Virus record (IMG/VR): IMGVR_UViG_3300037517_001501 | Location: 1-42,720 of that record | Direction: 5' to 3' (one strand) | Source: a virus | Length of the DNA stretch: 42,720 bases | Shown here: positions 5,080 to 40,561 of the stretch, piece by piece | Numbering within the stretch: the stretch's first letter is position 1 | Layout of the letters: the number at the start of each line of letters is the position of its first letter | Made by a program: the position numbers and the translations under genes | The notes under the pieces: generated by a model | What the model saw: only the letters and a program-made list of their open reading frames with translations | What the model was told of the DNA's origin: nothing | Database searches by the model: none

Positions 5080-5964
5080 TCACGCCGCTGGTTTAAGGAT
5101 TAGGCTTTTAAGCGGCCTACAGAACGGATAAGGGAGCGGCTCGATAGTCTCGGCATCGCCATACACGGCGCGATCTTGAATTCTGATTGGGCTGATAGCC
5201 ACCCCGGTGCTTGCGTCTCTTAAAAGCCTGAAGCGCAGTATATCGGGAGAACTGGCCGACGTAGATTCATCGTATATTTTCTGGCCGTTGCGATGAACTG
5301 TAATCTTATTGCCGCTAATTTTTTGTATTGCATAATGAACATAGCTTGGACTATTATTAGCAATGTTCAAAAAGTCATAATTAACCCCATCTTGGGATGC
5401 TAAAATGAAAGTTGAATAGGTAGTAATGTCAAAGCGGGTATTCGCAGGCAGAGTTGAGCCGTTGAATAGCTCGATTCTGACCGTGCCCGTAGACCCTTCC
5501 TGCTTGACTAGATACTGGACAGTAAACTCGCCAGTGCTTGCGTCAATCTCGGTTTCGCCAAAATCAACGTTCCAAGCTTCTTGGAGGAACGTGGTCACGA
5601 TCTCTTCCACATCAATCGTGTAAGCAGTAAATCCATCGCCCTCTACTATCGAATAAGGCTCGATGGCGCTTGCTTCGCGAGTGATAACAGCCCCTTCGTC
5701 ATTTGCCAGCGGCGGGGCTGTCGAAGGGAAGTAAATGAATACGCCGTCGCAACCTAACCCATAATTAGCCACCGCCGCCGGCTGCGGTCGCTTCCACCTC
5801 TTGCTGTCAGCGCCGAACTTACGGGACTGCGGCTTGGGCTGCAGCGGCGGCTGGCGAAGCAGTTCTTGGCGATCGAGCAACCTGCGGCGGTTGGCCATGA
5901 TCCGTGCCTTCACCGCCTCAAGGATTGCATCAGGCACATCTTCCAGGTTGATGTTTAGCGTCAT
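5080..5964 (-). CDS. Putative tail fibre or carbohydrate-binding virion protein
   Basis: The 294-residue product has a basic N-terminal segment (MANRRRLLDRQELLRQ, about residues 23-38), a Pro-linker, then a beta-rich region from about residue 70 with strands such as TVRIELFNGSTLPANTRFDI and YVHYAIQKISGNKITVHRNGQ. This resembles a jelly-roll or concanavalin-like fold, but no family is certain. The DNA is visibly more AT-rich than its neighbours, suggesting recent acquisition, as is common for receptor-binding genes. The start overlaps the preceding stop (ATGA at 5961-5964). Confidence 0.55.
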   Translation of the reverse strand: MTLNINLEDVPDAILEAVKARIMANRRRLLDRQELLRQPPLQPKPQSRKFGADSKRWKRPQPAAVANYGLGCDGVFIYFPSTAPPLANDEGAVITREASAIEPYSIVEGDGFTAYTIDVEEIVTTFLQEAWNVDFGETEIDASTGEFTVQYLVKQEGSTGTVRIELFNGSTLPANTRFDITTYSTFILASQDGVNYDFLNIANNSPSYVHYAIQKISGNKITVHRNGQKIYDESTSASSPDILRFRLLRDASTGVAISPIRIQDRAVYGDAETIEPLPYPFCRPLKSLILKPAA

Positions 5965-22573: not shown

Positions 22574-23054
22574 GCCCCACCTCCTGCCGCAGCACCTTGG
22601 CCGCCTGCGCGTACTCGCCGGAGCCGTGGAGGGCGAACCGGTCGAGCCAGGTGGCGACCGTGCGGATTGCGGCGACGCGAGCATGGGGATGCAGTGGCTG
22701 GCCTTCGCTCCAAACATCTCCCACCCTCTCCACCAACCCCCCAGACTGGGCCTCCGCGCTGGCGGCGCGGAGTTCGTCCATGGCGGGATCGGGCGTCGGA
22801 TCTGCAGCATCCAACGCAATCAGCCGGTCGAGCTTGTCTTGCTGGGCGGCTTCCAGCGCCTCCACCCGCCGAACGATGGCGTCAACGCAGAATCGGTGGC
22901 TCTCGGCCTGCTCCAGCTGGGTGGCCTCCAGCGCCTCGACGCGGGCGCGGAGTTCGAGGAGGCAGTCGGCAGTTGCCCACGGGATTTGCTTTATCCCGGC
23001 GCAAATCTCTACGTGCGTCCACTGCTCAGGCTTGGCGCGGTGTTGGTCGGTCAT
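22566..23054 (-). CDS. Coiled-coil hypothetical protein
   Basis: The 162-residue product begins MTDQHRAKPEQWTHVEICAG. It contains two short coiled-coil repeats (LLELRARVEALEATQLEQ and AIVRRVEALEAAQQDKLDRL), then a C-terminal helical region with HARVAAIRTVATWLDRFALH and AAKVLRQEV. A GGAG Shine-Dalgarno-like sequence lies just before the ATG. It heads a coupled four-gene operon (22566 down to 21774). Function unknown. Confidence 0.6.
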   Translation of the reverse strand: MTDQHRAKPEQWTHVEICAGIKQIPWATADCLLELRARVEALEATQLEQAESHRFCVDAIVRRVEALEAAQQDKLDRLIALDAADPTPDPAMDELRAASAEAQSGGLVERVGDVWSEGQPLHPHARVAAIRTVATWLDRFALHGSGEYAQAAKVLRQEVGRG

Positions 23055-23081
23055 GGCGTGTCTCCGTGGTGGGGTGAGCGA

Positions 23082-23261
23082 TCAAGCAGCCAACAACCGC
23101 CGAACCGTGGTGCGCGAACACCCCAGTCGATCAGCGATGCGCTGCTGTGTCCAGCCGTCGCGGCGCCAGCGGCGGGCGCGTTGCTGGCGGGATTCGGTGG
23201 CCCACAGCAGGAACAGCACTGGCAGCAGCAGCAGGGCCAGGATGGTGGCGGTAGTGGTCAT
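23082..23261 (-). CDS. Membrane-anchored helix-turn-helix protein
   Basis: The 59-residue product (start ATG 23261, MTTTATILALLLLPVLFLLW) has one N-terminal transmembrane helix (residues about 4-21), then a basic linker (RQQRARRWRRD). It ends in a resolvase-type helix-turn-helix (GWTQQRIADRLGCSRTTVRRLL). The layout would tether a DNA-binding domain to the inner face of the membrane. The upstream part of the longer frame is the 46-bp repeat leader and is not coding. Function unknown; superinfection sensing or DNA localisation are possibilities. Confidence 0.65.
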   Translation of the reverse strand: MTTTATILALLLLPVLFLLWATESRQQRARRWRRDGWTQQRIADRLGCSRTTVRRLLAA

Positions 23262-23280
23262 GGTGATGTGTGGTGGCTTG

Positions 23281-23335
23281 GATGAGTGCCGGATAGGCTC
23301 CGGCGAGCCTTGGGGTGGGTTAGGACTGTCGTGCG
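23281..23335 (-). repeat. 46-bp gene-boundary repeat with hairpin, copy 1
   Basis: Positions 23290-23335 are identical to 30266-30311. On the minus strand the repeat starts in the last codons of a gene (ending Arg-Gln-Ser-stop), then forms GGCTC-GCCG-GAGCC. An overlapping alternative hairpin, CCGGA-GCCTA-TCCGG, is also possible. Confidence 0.85.
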
Positions 23336-23508
23336 CCTGCTCGGCGCTTGATCGGGTCAAAGGTGGAAACGACTTCTCCGCCGAGCTTTCTTAAATCAAG
23401 CTCGGAAGCGGCAAAGAACTGCGACCCCCTTACTACGACGTACATCCGCTGCTTGTGCTTCCAGGCGTCTTCGCGGGCGTAGGACTCGGCTTGAGGTTTG
23501 GTGGCCAT
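23320..23508 (-). CDS. Small hypothetical protein under operator C
   Basis: The 62-residue product (start ATG 23508, MATKPQAESYAREDAWKHKQ) includes a strand pair RMYVVVRGSQFFAASELDL. It ends in ...GARQS, and its last codons belong to the 46-bp boundary repeat shared with the gene at 30296-30493. An operator-like sequence lies about 50 nt upstream. Function unknown. Confidence 0.6.
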   Translation of the reverse strand: MATKPQAESYAREDAWKHKQRMYVVVRGSQFFAASELDLRKLGGEVVSTFDPIKRRAGARQS

Positions 23509-30542: not shown

Positions 30543-30602
30543 ACTGTAACCCGTGGCGGACAGACTGACAACCACTCGCCAGGCCGGTTCACAATCCGTC
30601 AC
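30543..30602 (-). promoter_or_regulatory. Duplicated 60-bp promoter-like element, copy 2
   Basis: Same layout as 29283-29342. Here a good -35 candidate, TTGTCA, lies 17 nt before TACAGT. The element begins at the stop codon of the sigma-like gene. A GGGGC-GAGAGA-GCCCC hairpin follows before ATG 30493. Confidence 0.55.
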
Positions 30603-31393
30603 GCCACCAACAGCCCCATCTGCAGCGCCGTCGCCTCGATCGCCTTCCTGCTACGGCCGCGTGGCCGCCGTGCTGGTTTCTCCACTGCCACGGTCTCCAC
30701 CTCCACCGCCAGCGCCAGCTGCAGCACCTCCGACGGCCGGCGCCCCTGCAGCAGGGCTTTCATGCACCGGTGGAACTGCTGCATTGGCCCGGCAGGGTAT
30801 GCCAGGCGCCGTGGTGCACCCCACCAGCTGAGCAGTGACGTGCGGTCGCCCTTGTGGATGCTGTCCCAGGCACGCAGCACCAGTTCCTTCAGCGGGTCGA
30901 TCCGTGGCAGCTCCAGCTCAGGCGTGCTGTAACCATCAGCGCCGTGGATGTCGTCGAGGTTGGATGTGCCCGTCATACTGGCGAGCATCTCGCTGAGCTC
31001 GCTGATCGTGAGGCCAGACTGTTCAGCCACGTCCTGAGCCGACAGGTCAGGGTCTGACATGAGGCGCTGCACCTTGCCCCACTTCTCCCGCCACTTGGTT
31101 GGGAACTTCATGGCGAACCCACGATCGCGGAACCAGTGCAGGATCTCCCCTTGGATGAACGGCACCACGATGGTGGATAAGGCGTAGGGTTTGCCTGAAC
31201 CTGGGTTGAGGCGGTCGGGGTCATACCGCCGGCAGCCACGGATCAGGCCGACGTAGGCGATCGCCTCCAGCTCGTCATAGGGCTGGGCGGTCTTGCGATG
31301 GAAGCGCCAAGCGGACTGCCGTGCCAGGCCGAGGTTGGCGGTGATCAGATCCTCGCTGATCGCGGTGGGGGTGGGGAAGGTGGTTGCGGTCAT
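30599..31393 (-). CDS. RNA polymerase sigma-70-like factor lacking a clear region 4
   Basis: The 264-residue product (ATG 31393, MTATTFPTPTAISEDLITAN) has region 2 at about residues 17-98: LGLARQSAWRFHRKTAQPYD, ELEAIAYVGLIRGCRRYDPD, then KPYALSTIVVPFIQGEILHW FRDRG. A region-3-like helix-turn-helix follows (LSAQDVAEQSGLTISELSEM). No recognisable region 4 follows; instead there is a Trp/Arg-rich domain and a basic tail (ARRPRGRSRKAIEATAL). This plan suits a phage sigma that redirects host polymerase to promoters without a -35 element. ATGA couples it to the preceding gene. It may read the late motif in this window (inference). Confidence 0.75.
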   Translation of the reverse strand: MTATTFPTPTAISEDLITANLGLARQSAWRFHRKTAQPYDELEAIAYVGLIRGCRRYDPDRLNPGSGKPYALSTIVVPFIQGEILHWFRDRGFAMKFPTKWREKWGKVQRLMSDPDLSAQDVAEQSGLTISELSEMLASMTGTSNLDDIHGADGYSTPELELPRIDPLKELVLRAWDSIHKGDRTSLLSWWGAPRRLAYPAGPMQQFHRCMKALLQGRRPSEVLQLALAVEVETVAVEKPARRPRGRSRKAIEATALQMGLLVA

Positions 31394-31713
31394 GGCGAAC
31401 AGCTGGTGTTGCAGTCTTGAATCGGAACCACCTCGCCTGTGCTGTGGAGCACAGCAGTCGATGAACACATCAGGGCCGAGTCACGAATCATGGCGAACGC
31501 GACACCGCCAGTGGGGCAATGGCGCAGGACGTGAGAAATGAGCCCGATCGCGCTGTGTTCAGCTACGCAGCGGTTGAGCTGGGCGGGAGTGCCGTCACAG
31601 GTGCGGAGGATCTCGATCTCCGCATCCGTCAGCGGCGTGGTGGGGATGAGCGTGCAGGGATCGCCGTTCCAGAGCGGGTAGGTCTTGCGGAACCAATGGC
31701 AGTCGGCGGTCAT
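31390..31713 (-). CDS. Cys-rich hypothetical protein before the sigma-like gene
   Basis: The 107-residue product starts MTADCHWFRKTYPLWNGDPC. It has eight or so Cys, including pairs that could bind a metal or form disulphides, and a central helix (DAEIEILRTCDGTPAQLNRCVAEHS, of which the ends are acidic and polar). It is coupled by ATGA to the sigma-like gene, so it may be its partner, for example an anti-sigma. No evidence beyond position exists. Confidence 0.55.
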   Translation of the reverse strand: MTADCHWFRKTYPLWNGDPCTLIPTTPLTDAEIEILRTCDGTPAQLNRCVAEHSAIGLISHVLRHCPTGGVAFAMIRDSALMCSSTAVLHSTGEVVPIQDCNTSCSP

Positions 31714-34366: not shown

Positions 34367-34683
34367 GAGACCAGCTTCGCCAGCCTGGCGGCGGTGTTGA
34401 TCGCGCCCAGGGCAATGTGGTATTGCTTCGCCTTGCGGGCCTCCAGCTGCAGGGTGCTGCACTGGCTGAGCAGATCAGCGATCATCTGCGGGCGTTCTAG
34501 GTCCCAGTCGGCGCGGAGTTGATCGCGTGCGGCGGCGAGGTAATCACTGCATACGCGATCTGATACCCCCCACTTTTCAGCGGCAAATCGCACGCAATCA
34601 GAACGGCGACCACCATTAGCAATGATCTGCGCGAACTTACGGACGCGAAGCTCAAACTCTGCAGATGTCGCCCTGGCTGCCAT
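34363..34683 (-). CDS. Terminase small subunit
   Basis: The 106-residue, helical product contains a helix-turn-helix-like N-terminal region (RVRKFAQIIANGGRRSDCVR, AAEKWGVSDRVCSDYLAAAR) and a C-terminal helical oligomerisation segment (LLSQCSTLQLEARKAKQYHI). Size, fold type and position directly before the large subunit support the call. ATG 34683 lies within TAATGG, overlapping the end of the methyltransferase gene. Confidence 0.8.
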   Translation of the reverse strand: MAARATSAEFELRVRKFAQIIANGGRRSDCVRFAAEKWGVSDRVCSDYLAAARDQLRADWDLERPQMIADLLSQCSTLQLEARKAKQYHIALGAINTAARLAKLVS

Positions 34684-36233
34684 TAGGTTTCCGCCGGGAA
34701 CGGCTCGCCAGTGGATTCAAGCGTTGCGGTCTTGCCGGTGAACTGCTGCCAGCGGCGAACGATCACGTCCACATAGACCGGGTTCAGCTCCATCGCGTAG
34801 CAGGCCCTAGCAGTTTTCTCTGCCCCCATCAAGGTGCTGCCACTGCCGCCAAACGGCTCGACGCACAGGCCGCCGCCAGGCAGGCTCGACTTCATCACCC
34901 GCTCCATCATCACCACCGGCTTGGGTGTGGCATGGCCGTGGCGCTCGTCGCCAGTGACCCGCCCGAACTCCCAAACGTCGCGCATCACGTCGTGCGAGTT
35001 ATCGAAGTAGCTGCGGGTCTCGCGCTTTAGCTGGTCGTACTCGCGCTTTAGCTGGTCGTACTCGCGCTTGAAGGCTTTACCTGCTGCAGCATCTTGGATC
35101 TTTTGGTATTGCTCAGCAGTAGGAAACGCCCACTGCGATTTGGTGACCCAGTGGCCGCCCATAAAGGTGTCGGTGGCTCTGTTTAGGTCGGCCACCTTCC
35201 AACCAATCGACTTCATTTCTTGTTCTAGGTATGCACGCAGTGGCTCCCACCCTTGCCAGTAATCGGCGGCATTTACACTGCCTATTAACTGATTGCCCAA
35301 CTGAAAAAACAGGCAGTGCTCAGTTGCAACGGGATAACAAGTGATGCCTTCTTTGCCCATCAAAGAACACCCTCCGCCACCTGCAGCCTTCTTGTCCCAC
35401 ACGATCTGGTTCCGCAGCTCCATCAGCTCGCTGCTGCCAAGTCCAGCCTTGTACCAAAGACGCCACAGCTCCGGTGCGTTGCCCCAGATATAGGCACTGG
35501 CGTTGTCTTCCAGGAAGGGGCGGAAAGTCGCCCACCAATCCATCTGGAAGTTGTCGAGGTCGTCGTTGTAGAGGTTGTCGTTGGCGACGCCGTCTGATGC
35601 CTTGCCCATCCCGTAGGGCGGGTCCGCGTGCATCAGCTGCGCCTTTTTGCCATCCATCAACCGCTCCACCTCCGTCAACGATGTGCTATCCCCACACATC
35701 ACCCGATGCTTCCCAAGCAGCCACACATCACCTGGCTTCGTGACCGGCTCCGCCGGTGGCTCTGGCACCGCGTCAGCGTCCGCATCCTCCGGCGGCAGCT
35801 CTTCCGCCTCGGGCATTAGCTCTGCCAGCTCATCGCCCGACCATCCCAGCAAGCTCAGATCGAAGTCCTCGGTTTGGAGCGCCTGCAGCTCACCCACCAG
35901 CACGGCATCATCCCACCCAGCATTCAGCGCCAGCTTGTTGTCGGCGAGCACGTAGGCCCGGCGCTGGGCCGGTGAGAGGTGATCGAGCACCACCACGGGC
36001 ACGGTTGCCATGGCCAGCTCACGGGCGGCCTGTAGGCGGCCGTGGCCGGCGATGATGCCGTCTTTACCGTCAACCAGGATCGGGTTGGTGAATCCGAACT
36101 CTTGGATTGAGGCAGCGATCTGCGCAACCTGCTCAGCGCTGTGGGTGCGTGCGTTGCGGTCGTAGGGGACCAGTCGATCCAGCGGCCAGTGCTCAATGCG
36201 CTGGGCGGCCTGTACAGCGGCTGCGGCTGGCAC
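34683..36233 (-). CDS. ParB-like nuclease domain fused to a DNA methyltransferase
   Basis: The 516-residue product has a ParB/sulfiredoxin-like N-terminus (residues about 12-105: LDRLVPYDRNARTHSAEQVA, GFTNPILVDGKDGIIAGHGR). A beta-class DNA methyltransferase follows: catalytic DPPY at 204-207 (LMHADPPYGMG) and the SAM-binding motif near 455 (CVEPFGGSGSTLMGAE) at the C-terminal end. The fusion is common in phages and may mask DNA from host restriction. Between them lies an exact tandem repeat KREYDQL KREYDQL (about 389-402). Start GTG 36233, with operator B 43-58 nt upstream. Whether adenine or cytosine is methylated cannot be told. Confidence 0.88.
   Translation of the reverse strand: MPAAAAVQAAQRIEHWPLDRLVPYDRNARTHSAEQVAQIAASIQEFGFTNPILVDGKDGIIAGHGRLQAARELAMATVPVVVLDHLSPAQRRAYVLADNKLALNAGWDDAVLVGELQALQTEDFDLSLLGWSGDELAELMPEAEELPPEDADADAVPEPPAEPVTKPGDVWLLGKHRVMCGDSTSLTEVERLMDGKKAQLMHADPPYGMGKASDGVANDNLYNDDLDNFQMDWWATFRPFLEDNASAYIWGNAPELWRLWYKAGLGSSELMELRNQIVWDKKAAGGGGCSLMGKEGITCYPVATEHCLFFQLGNQLIGSVNAADYWQGWEPLRAYLEQEMKSIGWKVADLNRATDTFMGGHWVTKSQWAFPTAEQYQKIQDAAAGKAFKREYDQLKREYDQLKRETRSYFDNSHDVMRDVWEFGRVTGDERHGHATPKPVVMMERVMKSSLPGGGLCVEPFGGSGSTLMGAEKTARACYAMELNPVYVDVIVRRWQQFTGKTATLESTGEPFPAET
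34684..34692 (-). promoter_or_regulatory. Late-gene leader motif, copy before the small terminase
   Basis: GGAAACCTA on the minus strand runs directly into ATG 34683 (first G at 9 nt), the closest of all copies. It includes the ParB-methyltransferase stop codon. Confidence 0.45.
35019..35063 (-). repeat. 21-bp tandem duplication inside the methyltransferase gene
   Basis: The unit CGCTTTAGCTGGTCGTACT plus CG (plus strand) occurs twice in tandem and encodes KREYDQL twice. It keeps the frame and lies between catalytic domains, probably on a helical linker. Confidence 0.85.
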
Positions 36234-36275: not shown

Positions 36276-36299
36276 GCGGTTGTGCAACCGCACTACACG
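36276..36299. promoter_or_regulatory. Operator-like sequence B
   Basis: GCGGTTGTGCAACCGC is palindromic except for its TG centre. It overlaps the stop of the phosphoesterase gene and lies 43-58 nt before GTG 36233. Confidence 0.55.
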
Positions 36300-37159
36300 G
36301 CGGGTTCCAGGGCGATGTCCACGCCATCAGGGCCGGGTGTGAGGCGCAGCCAGACACCACCGAGCGATTTGGGCATGACGATCCGCTCGACGGCCCAGCC
36401 AGAGCCGTCTGCAAACTCTTCCTTGTAGGTGCCGGTTTGGACGTGCCAGCGCTGTGCGATGCGTTGGCGGCCGGCTTGGGTGAGGCGGTAGCAGGGGTGA
36501 GAGACGATGGTGCGCTCGTGGTTGTGGCCGTTGACGTAGAGGTCGGCTTCAGCGACGGCTGCATAACGCATGCCACCGAGGGTGCCTTTGGTCACGATGC
36601 CGCCCCATGCACCGTGATGAAAAAATAGGGCAACGCGGCGGGTGCGTTCAGAACGGGTTTTGCCAGGGCGGTAGAACGTGAACCAGAGCCAGCCCTGGTA
36701 CCGCATGTGCTCGACCGGTGAGCTGTAGCGATCCCGCATGAGGCGGGTCATGTTGCCGAGCGGGTCGATTTCGTTGTGATTGATGATGGCGGTTTCGTGG
36801 TTGCCATCGGACATCATGAGAATGGTTTGCGCGAAGGGTTTAAGCCATTCGGCGCATTCGCTGAACACTAGATCGAAGTAGTTGCTACCGAGGTGCTCGG
36901 GGCGAATGGAGCCCTTGGAACCACGACGGTCTTTCTTGCCCTGCATGAGGCAGAGGACATCACCAAAGAACAACGCATGACCACCGATGCCTTGAACGTG
37001 TTTGAGGTGTTTGCGTAGGAGGTCGCGTTGGCAGTGCGGGTTATCGAGGTGGATGTCTGAGGCGAGGAGGAAGGTATGGGGTTCGGCGTGACCGTATGGG
37101 ATACGGATGTCCAGCAGCTCAGGTGAGCGACGAACCAGGCGGATGGATGGTGTCGCCAC
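36293..37159 (-). CDS. Calcineurin-like metallophosphoesterase
   Basis: The 288-residue product has the full metal-binding set of this family: Asp35 and His37 (LLASDIHLDN), Asp67 (FFGDVLC), Asn120-His121 (MSDGNHETA), His181-His182 (FFHHGAWGG) and GHNH at 211-214. Such enzymes act on nucleic acids, nucleotides or phosphoproteins; location next to the putative origin and primase suggests a DNA role. Start GTG 37159, directly right of which the iteron region begins. Upstream there is ACGGCTTAACCCA and a pair of GGTTGC half-sites. Confidence 0.85.
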   Translation of the reverse strand: MATPSIRLVRRSPELLDIRIPYGHAEPHTFLLASDIHLDNPHCQRDLLRKHLKHVQGIGGHALFFGDVLCLMQGKKDRRGSKGSIRPEHLGSNYFDLVFSECAEWLKPFAQTILMMSDGNHETAIINHNEIDPLGNMTRLMRDRYSSPVEHMRYQGWLWFTFYRPGKTRSERTRRVALFFHHGAWGGIVTKGTLGGMRYAAVAEADLYVNGHNHERTIVSHPCYRLTQAGRQRIAQRWHVQTGTYKEEFADGSGWAVERIVMPKSLGGVWLRLTPGPDGVDIALEPAV

Positions 37160-37241
37160 CGGTTGATGGTGTCGGTTGCTGCAGGTTGCGGGGTTGGGTT
37201 AAGCCGTCACTGAGGGCTGATTTTGGCGTGGATGTGGCGGC

Positions 37242-37597
37242 GGACGTAAAAACCCAGGCTGTGACTGGGTTCGGACGCAAGTGCAGGCAAGTCGGACGCA
37301 AAAAACCTAGTGATAGCAAGGGAGGACGCAAAAACGGGATTTCCCCTATCCCCCCTATTAATTTCATAATGTTCACTACGATACATTCCTGCATGTTTTT
37401 TTCTCTACTTGATTTTATTCCTTGACTTGCGTCCGAAAGGTGAGAACCTTAATGGATACTGGGTTTTTGCGTCCGCAACTTGCGTCCGACTTGCGTCCGA
37501 ACGGACGCAACTAGCGTCCGTGATCAGTGCCAGGTGTCTAGCTTGAGACCCTTAATGAGACGCTCGCGGGACCTGCCGTTGCCCCTGTCGGACGCAA
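37242..37597. other. Putative phage replication origin with inverted iteron arrays
   Basis: The 9-mer CGGACGCAA or its complement TTGCGTCCG occurs exactly at 37272, 37293, 37427, 37467, 37480, 37491, 37502 and 37589, with one-base variants at 37242, 37323 and 37512. The copies left of 37332 point one way and most of those right of 37426 point the other way. The roughly 95 bp between is the most AT-rich stretch of the window (for example TATTAATTTCATAATG). It lies directly after the primase-helicase gene and contains no gene over 300 nt. Confidence 0.65.
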
Positions 37598-39926
37598 CTT
37601 TGGGGAAGATCTGCTTCAGCGCAGCGACCAAAAGACGGCTTGCCTTGACGGTGTGATCGCTTGGCTGGTCGATTACCCAGTGGCCTGCCTTGTCGAGGTA
37701 GCCCTCGTCGCGGTACCAGTCGCGGAGCCTGTCGTAGACCGTGGCAACGGTCACCTGGCCGTCTGGGTCGTAGCGAAGGCCTACCGCATCGCAGAACTCC
37801 CATAGGTGGCAGCTAGAGCGCCTCACCTCTTCCATCGCCTCGTGGCCGGTGCTGTAGTCGATGCCGTCTGAAACGGACAGCATCAGGCCTTCTAGGAGCC
37901 AGTTGAGGAAGGCAGGGCAGATCATCTCCTGGATGAACTCAGGGTCATCCTTGAGGCGCGGATCGGCCTGGATGTGGTTCGGTTCCGTTGGTGTGGCCAT
38001 GAACGTCTTCATGAACCGGAAGACGTGAAAGCGGGTTTCAACGGCGATCTGATCGCCTGACAGCGAGGGGTCTTTGTTTAGGTTAAAAACGAACAGAGCA
38101 GAAGGTACAAATTGCGACTCTTGAACACCTTTCAATTCGTAAGACAGTTCTTCGCCGCTAATGGCTGCCTTAAGAGATTGTAGGTTGTCAATATGAACAA
38201 ACTGGCTGTTTTCTGAAGACCAGTTGACAGATGCACCACGCAATGGGGCGATAGGAAACTTACGGCCGCTGTCATATTGACGGAAGTCAGCAAGTGTGCA
38301 AGAGGTAAAGTTACGGGCGCCGAGGGTATCACGCAGGGCCGTGCGTATGGTGTCTTTGCCGTTACTGCCTTCGCCAATCATTAGAACAGCGCGAGGTCTG
38401 CCACGTGATGCGCGATATTTGGCGAGGTGAAGACCGCTGCCTAGGATGCGTTGCAGGGTGTCACGATCACTGGGTTCAACGGCTTCTAAAAGCCTTGAGA
38501 GGTGCTGCGGATTCGCGCCAGGGTCGTAGTCGTACTCAGTGACATAGGTAAAGAATGTCTCTGGCGTATGCGGCTGAAACTGGATGTCAATTGCGCGGTC
38601 GTTCCATGTCCAGCTAACGATGCCATTGCGGCAGTTGATCGATGATTGGGGATTGACGGCAACGGGTGGCAGTAGCCGGCGCATCCATGCAAGGGCTTCA
38701 TCGATATATTTCGGGCGCTTCCATGGGTATTCATGCTGACCAGTTTTGTGGTCAACAACATGGATAGAGGACAGAAATGCAGCCAGTGAAGGCGTAATTT
38801 CTTCATCTGCAACGGGTTTGTAGTGATTGCCGCTCCAGCAATGAAGGATGCCGTCTACGCAGATCCACTGCTGGGCGGGGTACTGGAAGACGTGTTCAAC
38901 GACCAGATCCAACCATTCAGTTGTTGATTTGCTGGACAGCTGAAGGTTGATCGCCTGATCAGGGTCTGTCGCTGTAGTTGCTGGTGAGTGTATGCGGCGG
39001 GTTGGTTGTGTTTTGAGCGGTGGTGTGTTCTGGTAGCCGTGATACCGAGCCCAATACCAAAAAGTGCCAGGGTTAATTTTATCGCCACCTGAACGAGCGA
39101 TTTGCGATACGTTCCAACCACAGACGCCGGATGGCGAATGTGACTCCATCAATGAGATCGCCTGATCTTCGCCAGCGATTGTTTTAAGGGACCATAAGAT
39201 ATTTCTGTATTTCTCGTAAGTGTTATCGCCAGGCACCCGTTGTGGGATGTGTGATAGTGCGGCCTTGATTTCGTCTAGCGTGGCCGGTTCGTATTGCTGG
39301 TATGGTTCGCGTTGCGCTTTGGATTGATGAGCGTAGAAGGTGTCATCAGGCAGCGTTGCCTCAATGTCGAACACTTTGTAGCGAGTACCGGTAAAACCGA
39401 CGATCTTGCACATTTCACCGAGGCTGCCATCAGCGCCAGCGTGATAGGTGCCAGGCAGCCGCATGACGCGAGCGAGGTTCTTGGTGCTGCGGTCTGCGTC
39501 GGCGTAGTTGAGTAGCCGTGTTTGGATCAGCTTCCAGTGCTCGGTTGTGATGGCATCGGATAGCACCCAGTAGTTGTGAATTGATTTACCACCGGTCGAG
39601 ACCTGCATGGTGGGTTCTGGTAAGCCCAGTTCCTGCCATGCGGTGAGCTGCCATTCAACGGGTCGATTGTCCCATTCGCAGAAGAAAGCGCGGCAGGTGG
39701 TGATGTCTGCATCCTTGTCGCCGCCGTCATTGATGACGACGTAGACACCACGGCCATCGGTTTGCCATTGAGTGACAAGGGATCGTGACATGCCGCCTTT
39801 GCGGCCCTGATCACCGGCCTTGTCAGGGTGTTCCTTGTGGAGGAATGCTCGGAGCCTAACGGTACCTGGCGGCTTGCCAAGCGCCTCTACAAAGCGCTGA
39901 CCTTCAGCGAAATCAAGAGGTTTCAT
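37524..39926 (-). CDS. Primase-helicase (RepB-like primase plus SF3/D5 helicase)
   Basis: The 800-residue product has an N-terminal RepB-type primase (residues about 50-215, with VYVVINDGGDKDADITTCRA, FFCEWDNRPVEW and TMQVSTGGKSIHNYWVL). A primase C-terminal helical domain follows (LDEIKAALSHIPQRVPGDNT... GVCGWNVSQIARSGG). The C-terminal half is a D5/SF3 helicase: Walker A-like IGEGSNGKDTIRTAL near 517-531, where Asp replaces the usual Ser/Thr after Lys; then APLRGASVNWSSENSQF and PSALFVFNLNKDPSL. It probably starts replication at the adjacent iteron region. ATG overlaps the nuclease stop (TGATG). Confidence 0.88.
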   Translation of the reverse strand: MKPLDFAEGQRFVEALGKPPGTVRLRAFLHKEHPDKAGDQGRKGGMSRSLVTQWQTDGRGVYVVINDGGDKDADITTCRAFFCEWDNRPVEWQLTAWQELGLPEPTMQVSTGGKSIHNYWVLSDAITTEHWKLIQTRLLNYADADRSTKNLARVMRLPGTYHAGADGSLGEMCKIVGFTGTRYKVFDIEATLPDDTFYAHQSKAQREPYQQYEPATLDEIKAALSHIPQRVPGDNTYEKYRNILWSLKTIAGEDQAISLMESHSPSGVCGWNVSQIARSGGDKINPGTFWYWARYHGYQNTPPLKTQPTRRIHSPATTATDPDQAINLQLSSKSTTEWLDLVVEHVFQYPAQQWICVDGILHCWSGNHYKPVADEEITPSLAAFLSSIHVVDHKTGQHEYPWKRPKYIDEALAWMRRLLPPVAVNPQSSINCRNGIVSWTWNDRAIDIQFQPHTPETFFTYVTEYDYDPGANPQHLSRLLEAVEPSDRDTLQRILGSGLHLAKYRASRGRPRAVLMIGEGSNGKDTIRTALRDTLGARNFTSCTLADFRQYDSGRKFPIAPLRGASVNWSSENSQFVHIDNLQSLKAAISGEELSYELKGVQESQFVPSALFVFNLNKDPSLSGDQIAVETRFHVFRFMKTFMATPTEPNHIQADPRLKDDPEFIQEMICPAFLNWLLEGLMLSVSDGIDYSTGHEAMEEVRRSSCHLWEFCDAVGLRYDPDGQVTVATVYDRLRDWYRDEGYLDKAGHWVIDQPSDHTVKASRLLVAALKQIFPKVASDRGNGRSRERLIKGLKLDTWH

Positions 39927-40561
39927 CAGATGCTGAAGGTTGGCGTTTCGCCGTGCTCAAAGCGGGCGGATCTGGCTGCGGCGCAAGCGTTGTGAAGCTT
40001 GTTGACTAAATCCTGATGTTGGTCAATAGTGGCAAGTATCGATCCTTTATGAGGGCGGCATAGGTTGCCAGCAAATCCATATTCGTAAGGATGCCCACCA
40101 CCTCCAGGCGTGGACGAATCGCAGGGAAAGCAAAGATACTCCCACTCTTCATGCCGATTGAATGGAGCCTGTATGTCGCTTGGCTCTAAATAGCCACCGC
40201 ACCTAGGACATACAGATCGCCCGTCGCCGAACACGGCGAAGGGATCTCCGTGTACAAGTCGAACCTCAAGATTCATTGGCGCGTATCCATGCTCTCTCTC
40301 GTGGGAATAAATGAGCATGTCCGCAAACCGTTCAAACTTGGGACATGAGTCGGCGCCTAGCGGTTTGATCTCATACCAGTAGACAAGATCCCCAGTTGTG
40401 ACACGGAAATCAGGCAGGTAGAACTCCCCGTCAAGATCAAAACCTTCGGGTTCGTATTCCCACTGAACGCCGAGGGTTTCAAAGAAAACCGCCCAGCGAG
40501 CTTCCAGCCGGCTACGGAAGCGATGGCCGTAGGCGCGTGTTTCGATTGGCTTGATCGGCAT
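39926..40561 (-). CDS. PD-(D/E)XK nuclease with zinc-binding insertion
   Basis: The 211-residue product starts MPIKPIETRAYGHRFRSRLE. It has the nuclease core Glu20 (RSRLEARWAVFF), Asp51 (GEFYLPDFRV) and EIK 64-66 (VYWYEIKPLG), that is E...D...ExK. A Cys-rich part (VCPRCGGYL and YLCFPCDSS) would bind zinc. Such small nucleases in phages act in recombination or host DNA breakdown. It is coupled to the primase gene, so a replication-recombination role is likely. Confidence 0.75.
   Translation of the reverse strand: MPIKPIETRAYGHRFRSRLEARWAVFFETLGVQWEYEPEGFDLDGEFYLPDFRVTTGDLVYWYEIKPLGADSCPKFERFADMLIYSHEREHGYAPMNLEVRLVHGDPFAVFGDGRSVCPRCGGYLEPSDIQAPFNRHEEWEYLCFPCDSSTPGGGGHPYEYGFAGNLCRPHKGSILATIDQHQDLVNKLHNACAAARSARFEHGETPTFSI

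Follow-up and report, generated by a model that had tools for sequence, protein, structure and literature searches.

The window, by which we mean the whole stretch of DNA from an uncultivated phage analysed here (42,720 nucleotides; positions 1 to 42,720 of IMG/VR record IMGVR_UViG_3300037517_001501), encodes on its minus strand a PrimPol-helicase initiator of 800 amino acids (37524-39926), which was identified by domain, PHROGs and structure-database matches and which matches several primase families of PHROGs. The protein consists of an AEP domain, whose best match (residues 17-184) is to PP-N190 of S-2L, followed by D5_N (407-472) and DUF5906 (516-623) domains and by a predicted C-terminal winged helix (about residues 695-800). 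The solved structure closest to the N-terminal domain is the AEP domain of the cyanophage S-2L PrimPol (6zp9, E 6e-31), and the similarity to PP-N190 places the enzyme with the S-2L-type PrimPols; the helicase part matches a SaPI5-type protein (7ola, E 4e-5). A gene for a nuclease or Holliday-junction-resolvase-like protein adjoins the PrimPol gene (39926-40561, minus strand), comparable to the VRR-NUC gene beside the S-2L PrimPol; on the other side, beyond an array of short repeats, lies a DNA repair exonuclease-like gene (36293-37159, minus strand) whose place is not conserved in relatives. A fused ParB-N / N6-N4 DNA methylase gene is located nearby (34683-36233), and a sigma-factor-like phage protein, related to the PHROG sigma families, is encoded at 30599-31468. 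Terminase, portal and head proteins are also encoded in the window, which therefore does not qualify as a PICI or satellite. The terminase has its nearest counterparts in phages of Synechococcus and Prochlorococcus, among others; since prophage-like relatives of the PrimPol domain are also present in genomes of Synechococcus, Cyanobium and Vulcanococcus, the host is likely to be a picocyanobacterium.

The repeats form two arrays of the 9-mer CGGACGCAA. In the distal array, all copies face rightward (plus strand); it comprises the variant CGGACGTAA at 37241-37249, found by one-mismatch search in a slot that is also occupied in relatives, exact copies at 37272-37280 and 37293-37301, and the one-mismatch variant AGGACGCAA at 37323-37331. 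Successive copies are 31, 21 and 30 bp apart, steps that may approximate whole helical turns. In the gene-proximal array, with spacings of 40, 13, 11, 11, 10 and 77 bp, four exact copies (37427-37435, 37467-37475, 37480-37488 and 37491-37499) and the one-mismatch variant CGGACGCTA (37512-37520), which ends 3 bp from the PrimPol stop codon, face leftward (minus strand); two exact copies face rightward, one at 37502-37510, which forms an inverted pair with the copy at 37491, and one at 37589-37597, which covers codons 777-780 (V-A-S-D) inside the gene for the PrimPol-helicase, at its 3' end. The initial annotation of this DNA had described eight exact and three variant copies in one small cluster, with left copies facing right, most right copies facing left, and one copy inside the 3' end of the adjoining primase-helicase gene; exact and one-mismatch searches, copy strands and gene coordinates bear this out. 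The span that it had given, 37242-37597, stands at its right end and has to be extended by one base at its left end, since a one-mismatch copy begins at 37241.

All eight exact copies in the window lie within 37272-37597, against an expectation of 0.66, and none occurs elsewhere in the window; none of 100 shuffles gave eight exact copies. When one mismatch is allowed, the window total of 17 (including the three array variants at 37241, 37323 and 37512 and six dispersed matches) compares with 15.9 by chance. A blind k-mer scan of the window returned the array as the top repeat cluster (-log10 p of 22, vs. 10 for the next), and the 7-mer and 8-mer counts of the array are unmatched by any other 500-bp stretch of the window. 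An even spread of the word over the genome, named at the outset as an observation that would contradict an origin, is not seen; in 19 related contigs (about 0.74 Mb), a single exact word outside the array, in contig G018, appears among the matches listed.

Between the two arrays lies a 95-bp core (37332-37426), the probable melting region, with a GC content of 35.8% vs. 61.8% for the window, in agreement with the earlier description of an AT-rich core in a GC-rich genome; stretches of this length that are equally AT-rich are found at just one other place in the window, around 5259-5354. Short repeats clustered at one locus and an adjacent AT-rich region, two features by which iteron origins are recognised, are both present. 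The core includes an CCCCTATCCCCCCTATTAAT tract (a G-run on the minus strand) that is similar in relatives. Cumulative GC skew, one of the checks put forward with the initial annotation, does not turn at the array and hence lends no support to an origin. An Rfam search gave no match. Tandem near-identical repeats of about 80 bp occupy positions 1-300, at the left contig end.

The alignment of origins revealed a second conserved element, CCTTGCTATCACTAG (37307-37321, minus strand), between two iterons. In the form CCTTGSTAYNACTRG, it is found in one to three copies per origin, both in the iteron clades and in L149, and these copies lie between iterons and may point either way; origins that contain it include those of L011, L020, L047, L139, L146 and L149. 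The element stays constant while the iteron word changes, and this independence allows for another binder; the element may be bound by something else, of host or phage origin. Its status as a widespread element was rejected: exact 18-mer matches in 45 viral contigs look like chance, and PrimPol was found among the new loci of this search only at L169 (on the same contig as L139), besides the already known L143.

A protein scan for primase relatives yielded 62 loci, and at every scanned locus where the gene end was recovered, the gene is directly followed on its 3' side by an array of a single 9-mer (in L012, the contig is cut inside the primase gene); about 60 primase relatives in viral contigs carry the array immediately 3' of the gene, as do further relatives. 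Iteron slots and orientations are almost unchanged between contigs. Across 14 divergent clade-A origins, identity is 90% in the iteron columns, 58% in the remaining origin columns and 67% at the gene end, and the in-gene iteron at 37589-37597 is invariant in all 14 rows. The word itself is clade-specific – CGGACGCAA in clade A, CGAAGGCAA in B1 and B2, and CGGAGGCAA in C – and in the other clades it changes coherently across the slots; clade D (L145-L147) has degenerate copies in the corresponding slots and no significant exact repeat. The genes beyond the array, by comparison, belong to 14 unrelated clusters among 39 sampled relatives; even the window and L011, with 89% identity between their primases, have unrelated genes here. 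Since these genes are swapped while the array stays, the array travels with the primase and not with the next gene. Relatives thus keep the layout, position and orientation of the array beside the same gene even where its word has changed, and for this reason it is very likely that 37241-37597 is a phage replication origin that works with the adjoining initiator, an AEP PrimPol with a D5-type helicase and a winged helix; the origin suggested in the initial annotation is supported to this extent.

The same comparisons bear on the unlikely case that the array is an operator, to which an RHH (CopG-like) or other phage regulator binds via the 9-mers to control either the PrimPol operon or the gene on the far side of the array. 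An RHH gene is indeed the commonest gene directly beyond the array (the largest cluster, 16 of 39 sampled relatives, one member of which has a Pfam RHH_1 match), and the second motif could be the site of such a regulator. However, the window and several relatives have no RHH gene in this place, and unrelated genes follow an intact array, which counts against a plain operator; furthermore, the array is located 3' and not 5' of the conserved gene, a sigma-70-like promoter was not found in 36900-38000, and the word changes along with the winged helix of the PrimPol.

In the origin reading, the part of the initiator that recognises the iterons is likely to be this C-terminal winged helix, as suggested by a structure model and by differences between clades. 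The initial annotation had looked to the N-terminal domain for binding of the 9-mer; its match to S-2L identifies the N-terminus as the PrimPol catalytic domain instead. An AF2 model of the last 106 residues (pLDDT 81, pTM 0.74; the full-length model, at pLDDT 51, is too poor for use) has RFX winged helices as its best PDB folds, with probabilities of 1.00 and 0.97 at weak Foldseek E-values (6.5e-3), and phage primases and helicases are among its best viral folds. When the sister clades A (CGGACGCAA) and B1 (CGAAGGCAA) are compared, fixed differences affect 11 of the 42 conserved winged-helix sites vs. 21 of 355 elsewhere (p = 1e-4); two of the 11, A778 and S779, are coded by the in-gene iteron, and without them 9 of 40 sites still differ (p = 1e-3). 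At residue 769, which belongs to the predicted recognition helix, clade A sequences have Ala (43) or Ser (1), where all others have Arg or Lys; at residue 776, clade A has Lys and the others, without exception, Asp or Glu. As a caveat, both residues change together with the word as one event on the tree, and this single switch is therefore a strong hint and a correlation, not a replicated test.

Where these differences fall also matters for the improbable reading that the 9-mers are read in the template, as signals for the PrimPol to make primers, rather than as double-strand binding sites. The NrS-1 PrimPol primes at TTTGGTTA or GTGA/GTGG (PMC8718748), the S-2L PrimPol did not prime on random templates, perhaps because these lacked its own sequence (PMC8065100), and A-runs often follow the iterons of the present family. 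Yet fixed spacing, facing arrays around an AT-rich core and clustering in a single place are a better fit to duplex binding, and the clade differences are concentrated in the winged helix, with fewer in the AEP domain (6 of 93 sites); the region of residues 191-300 shows some enrichment (7 of 38).

For the origin and its initiator, a mechanism can be outlined by analogy. The winged helix would bind the 9-bp iterons of both facing arrays; helicase rings would then form at the two arrays and open the AT-rich core in between, as SaPI/PICI and P4 initiators suggest; the PrimPol domain, judged by its S-2L and NrS-1 counterparts, would prime, and perhaps synthesise, DNA on the exposed strands. Synthesis by the PrimPol is considered because no other DNA polymerase (PolA, PolB or DnaE-type) was found in 13 possibly incomplete contigs, including the 52-kb contig that extends the window. 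That the origin is instead a stem-loop of the pRN1 type, behind an AEP-SF3-winged-helix gene and with repeats that matter by pairing, is very improbable: pRN1 does require a stem-loop 3' of its PrimPol-SF3-winged-helix gene, as has been proposed for the whole protein class (PMC4234260), and the window array folds well as a single strand (z = -7.8), but the predicted consensus pairs are mostly iteron-iteron, not a conserved stem-loop independent of the iterons, facing copies pair trivially and covary with the word change, the consensus fold leaves the core unpaired, and the closely spaced inverted pair has become direct copies in clade B1 and is lost in clade D.

Outside the D5-type family, PrimPol genes that are more distant and combined with other helicases also have arrays behind them, built from quite different words: GGATTCTT in Synechococcus WH 5701 (AAA_25 helicase), GGAAACTT in Vulcanococcus, and ACCGTTAC in a binned Hyphomonadaceae contig. 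Facing arrays of GGATTCTT / GGAAACTT stand right behind prophage-like PrimPol genes of Synechococcus WH 5701 and other picocyanobacteria, in L152 (8478-8860), L158, L150 and L154, the AAA_25 module having been tested in L152. In Synechocystis (L148), a distant relative of full length lacks an array. It is conceivable, as a tentative generalisation that we consider rather doubtful as a whole, that cyanobacterial phages and prophages share a modular class of PrimPol-fused initiators, in which one AEP type is combined with interchangeable helicases (D5, VapE-like, AAA_25 and others), each then with its own iteron array; the C-terminal domain and the array would be exchanged together or co-evolve as lock and key, and the genome would be copied largely by the PrimPol, starting from the core. 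The origins of PrimPol-reliant phages are little known, and this family provides a short, well-defined candidate origin together with natural word variants and matching winged-helix variants, so that initiator specificity becomes directly testable.

Phage P4, with its alpha protein, has an ori/crr layout. The alpha protein resembles the present initiator as a primase-helicase whose winged helix binds origin repeats (as cited in PMC4234260); unlike the latter, it has a Toprim and not an AEP primase. The Sulfolobus plasmid pRN1 shares with the window an AEP-SF3-winged-helix protein (ORF904) and an origin 3' of its gene (PMC4234260), yet it uses a stem-loop, explicitly without iterons; the present family, with its iterons, runs counter to the proposal of stem-loop origins for PrimPol-SF3-winged-helix replicons. 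In SCCmec, Cch2 has a D5_N helicase, and its C-terminal domain binds direct repeats downstream of the operon (PMC7581432); there, priming is performed by a separate polymerase-small protein pair (CCPol-MP), without a fused PrimPol.

In cyanophage S-2L, helicase, nuclease and PrimPol genes occur in the same order and are followed by a 360-bp non-coding gap; its PrimPol has been described as the only possible polymerase of the phage (PMC8065100) and did not prime in vitro, possibly for want of the right template. The S-2L gap (23039-23397; L160 10158-10516) contains eight GGCAC/GTGCC words around an A-run, followed by a G-run; these words are densest just after the PrimPol gene but not significant in a blind genome scan, and as a candidate array they are only suggestive. 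In contrast to the window, the S-2L helicase domain is VapE-like and not D5; conversely, the group of the window is without a PurZ-type gene, and no PurZ (PF00709, adenylosuccinate synthetase family), as would mark an S-2L-type phage with a 2-aminoadenine genome, was found in the 13 possibly incomplete contigs.

The closest parallel is with the Rep-ori systems of SaPIs and PICIs (SaPIbov1, SaPI5, EcCICFT073), which combine an AEP primase and a D5-like helicase, fused in SaPI5, with an origin directly 3' of the gene, whose iterons are recognised by the C-terminal domain of Rep (PMC6092414, PMC7581432). In SaPIs, the iterons that this domain recognises lie directly behind rep, on its downstream side (PMC7581432); in PICIs, an AT-rich region is always flanked by two sets of iterons (PMC6092414), a layout that the PICI authors found in no other known bacterial replicon. 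The window matches these systems in the position of its array immediately 3' of the initiator gene, in its two iteron sets flanking an AT-rich region, and, according to the winged-helix model, in a predicted C-terminal DNA-binding domain of the initiator. It differs in its AEP domain of the S-2L PrimPol type, in its iteron word, in its extra conserved motif and single in-gene iteron, and in that its group consists of ordinary tailed-phage genomes with their own terminase and portal, and not of satellites; the layout thus occurs outside satellites, contrary to the claim of its uniqueness. No paper describing the CGGACGCAA word or such an origin was found in the open-licence literature. The layout itself has precedents in SaPIs and PICIs, and the enzyme type has one in S-2L; the open papers searched gave no account of the two combined in tailed cyanophages, where the words are specific to clades and the winged helices match them. 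The unit is best read as a probable SaPI/PICI-type, P4-like initiator-origin of these phages.
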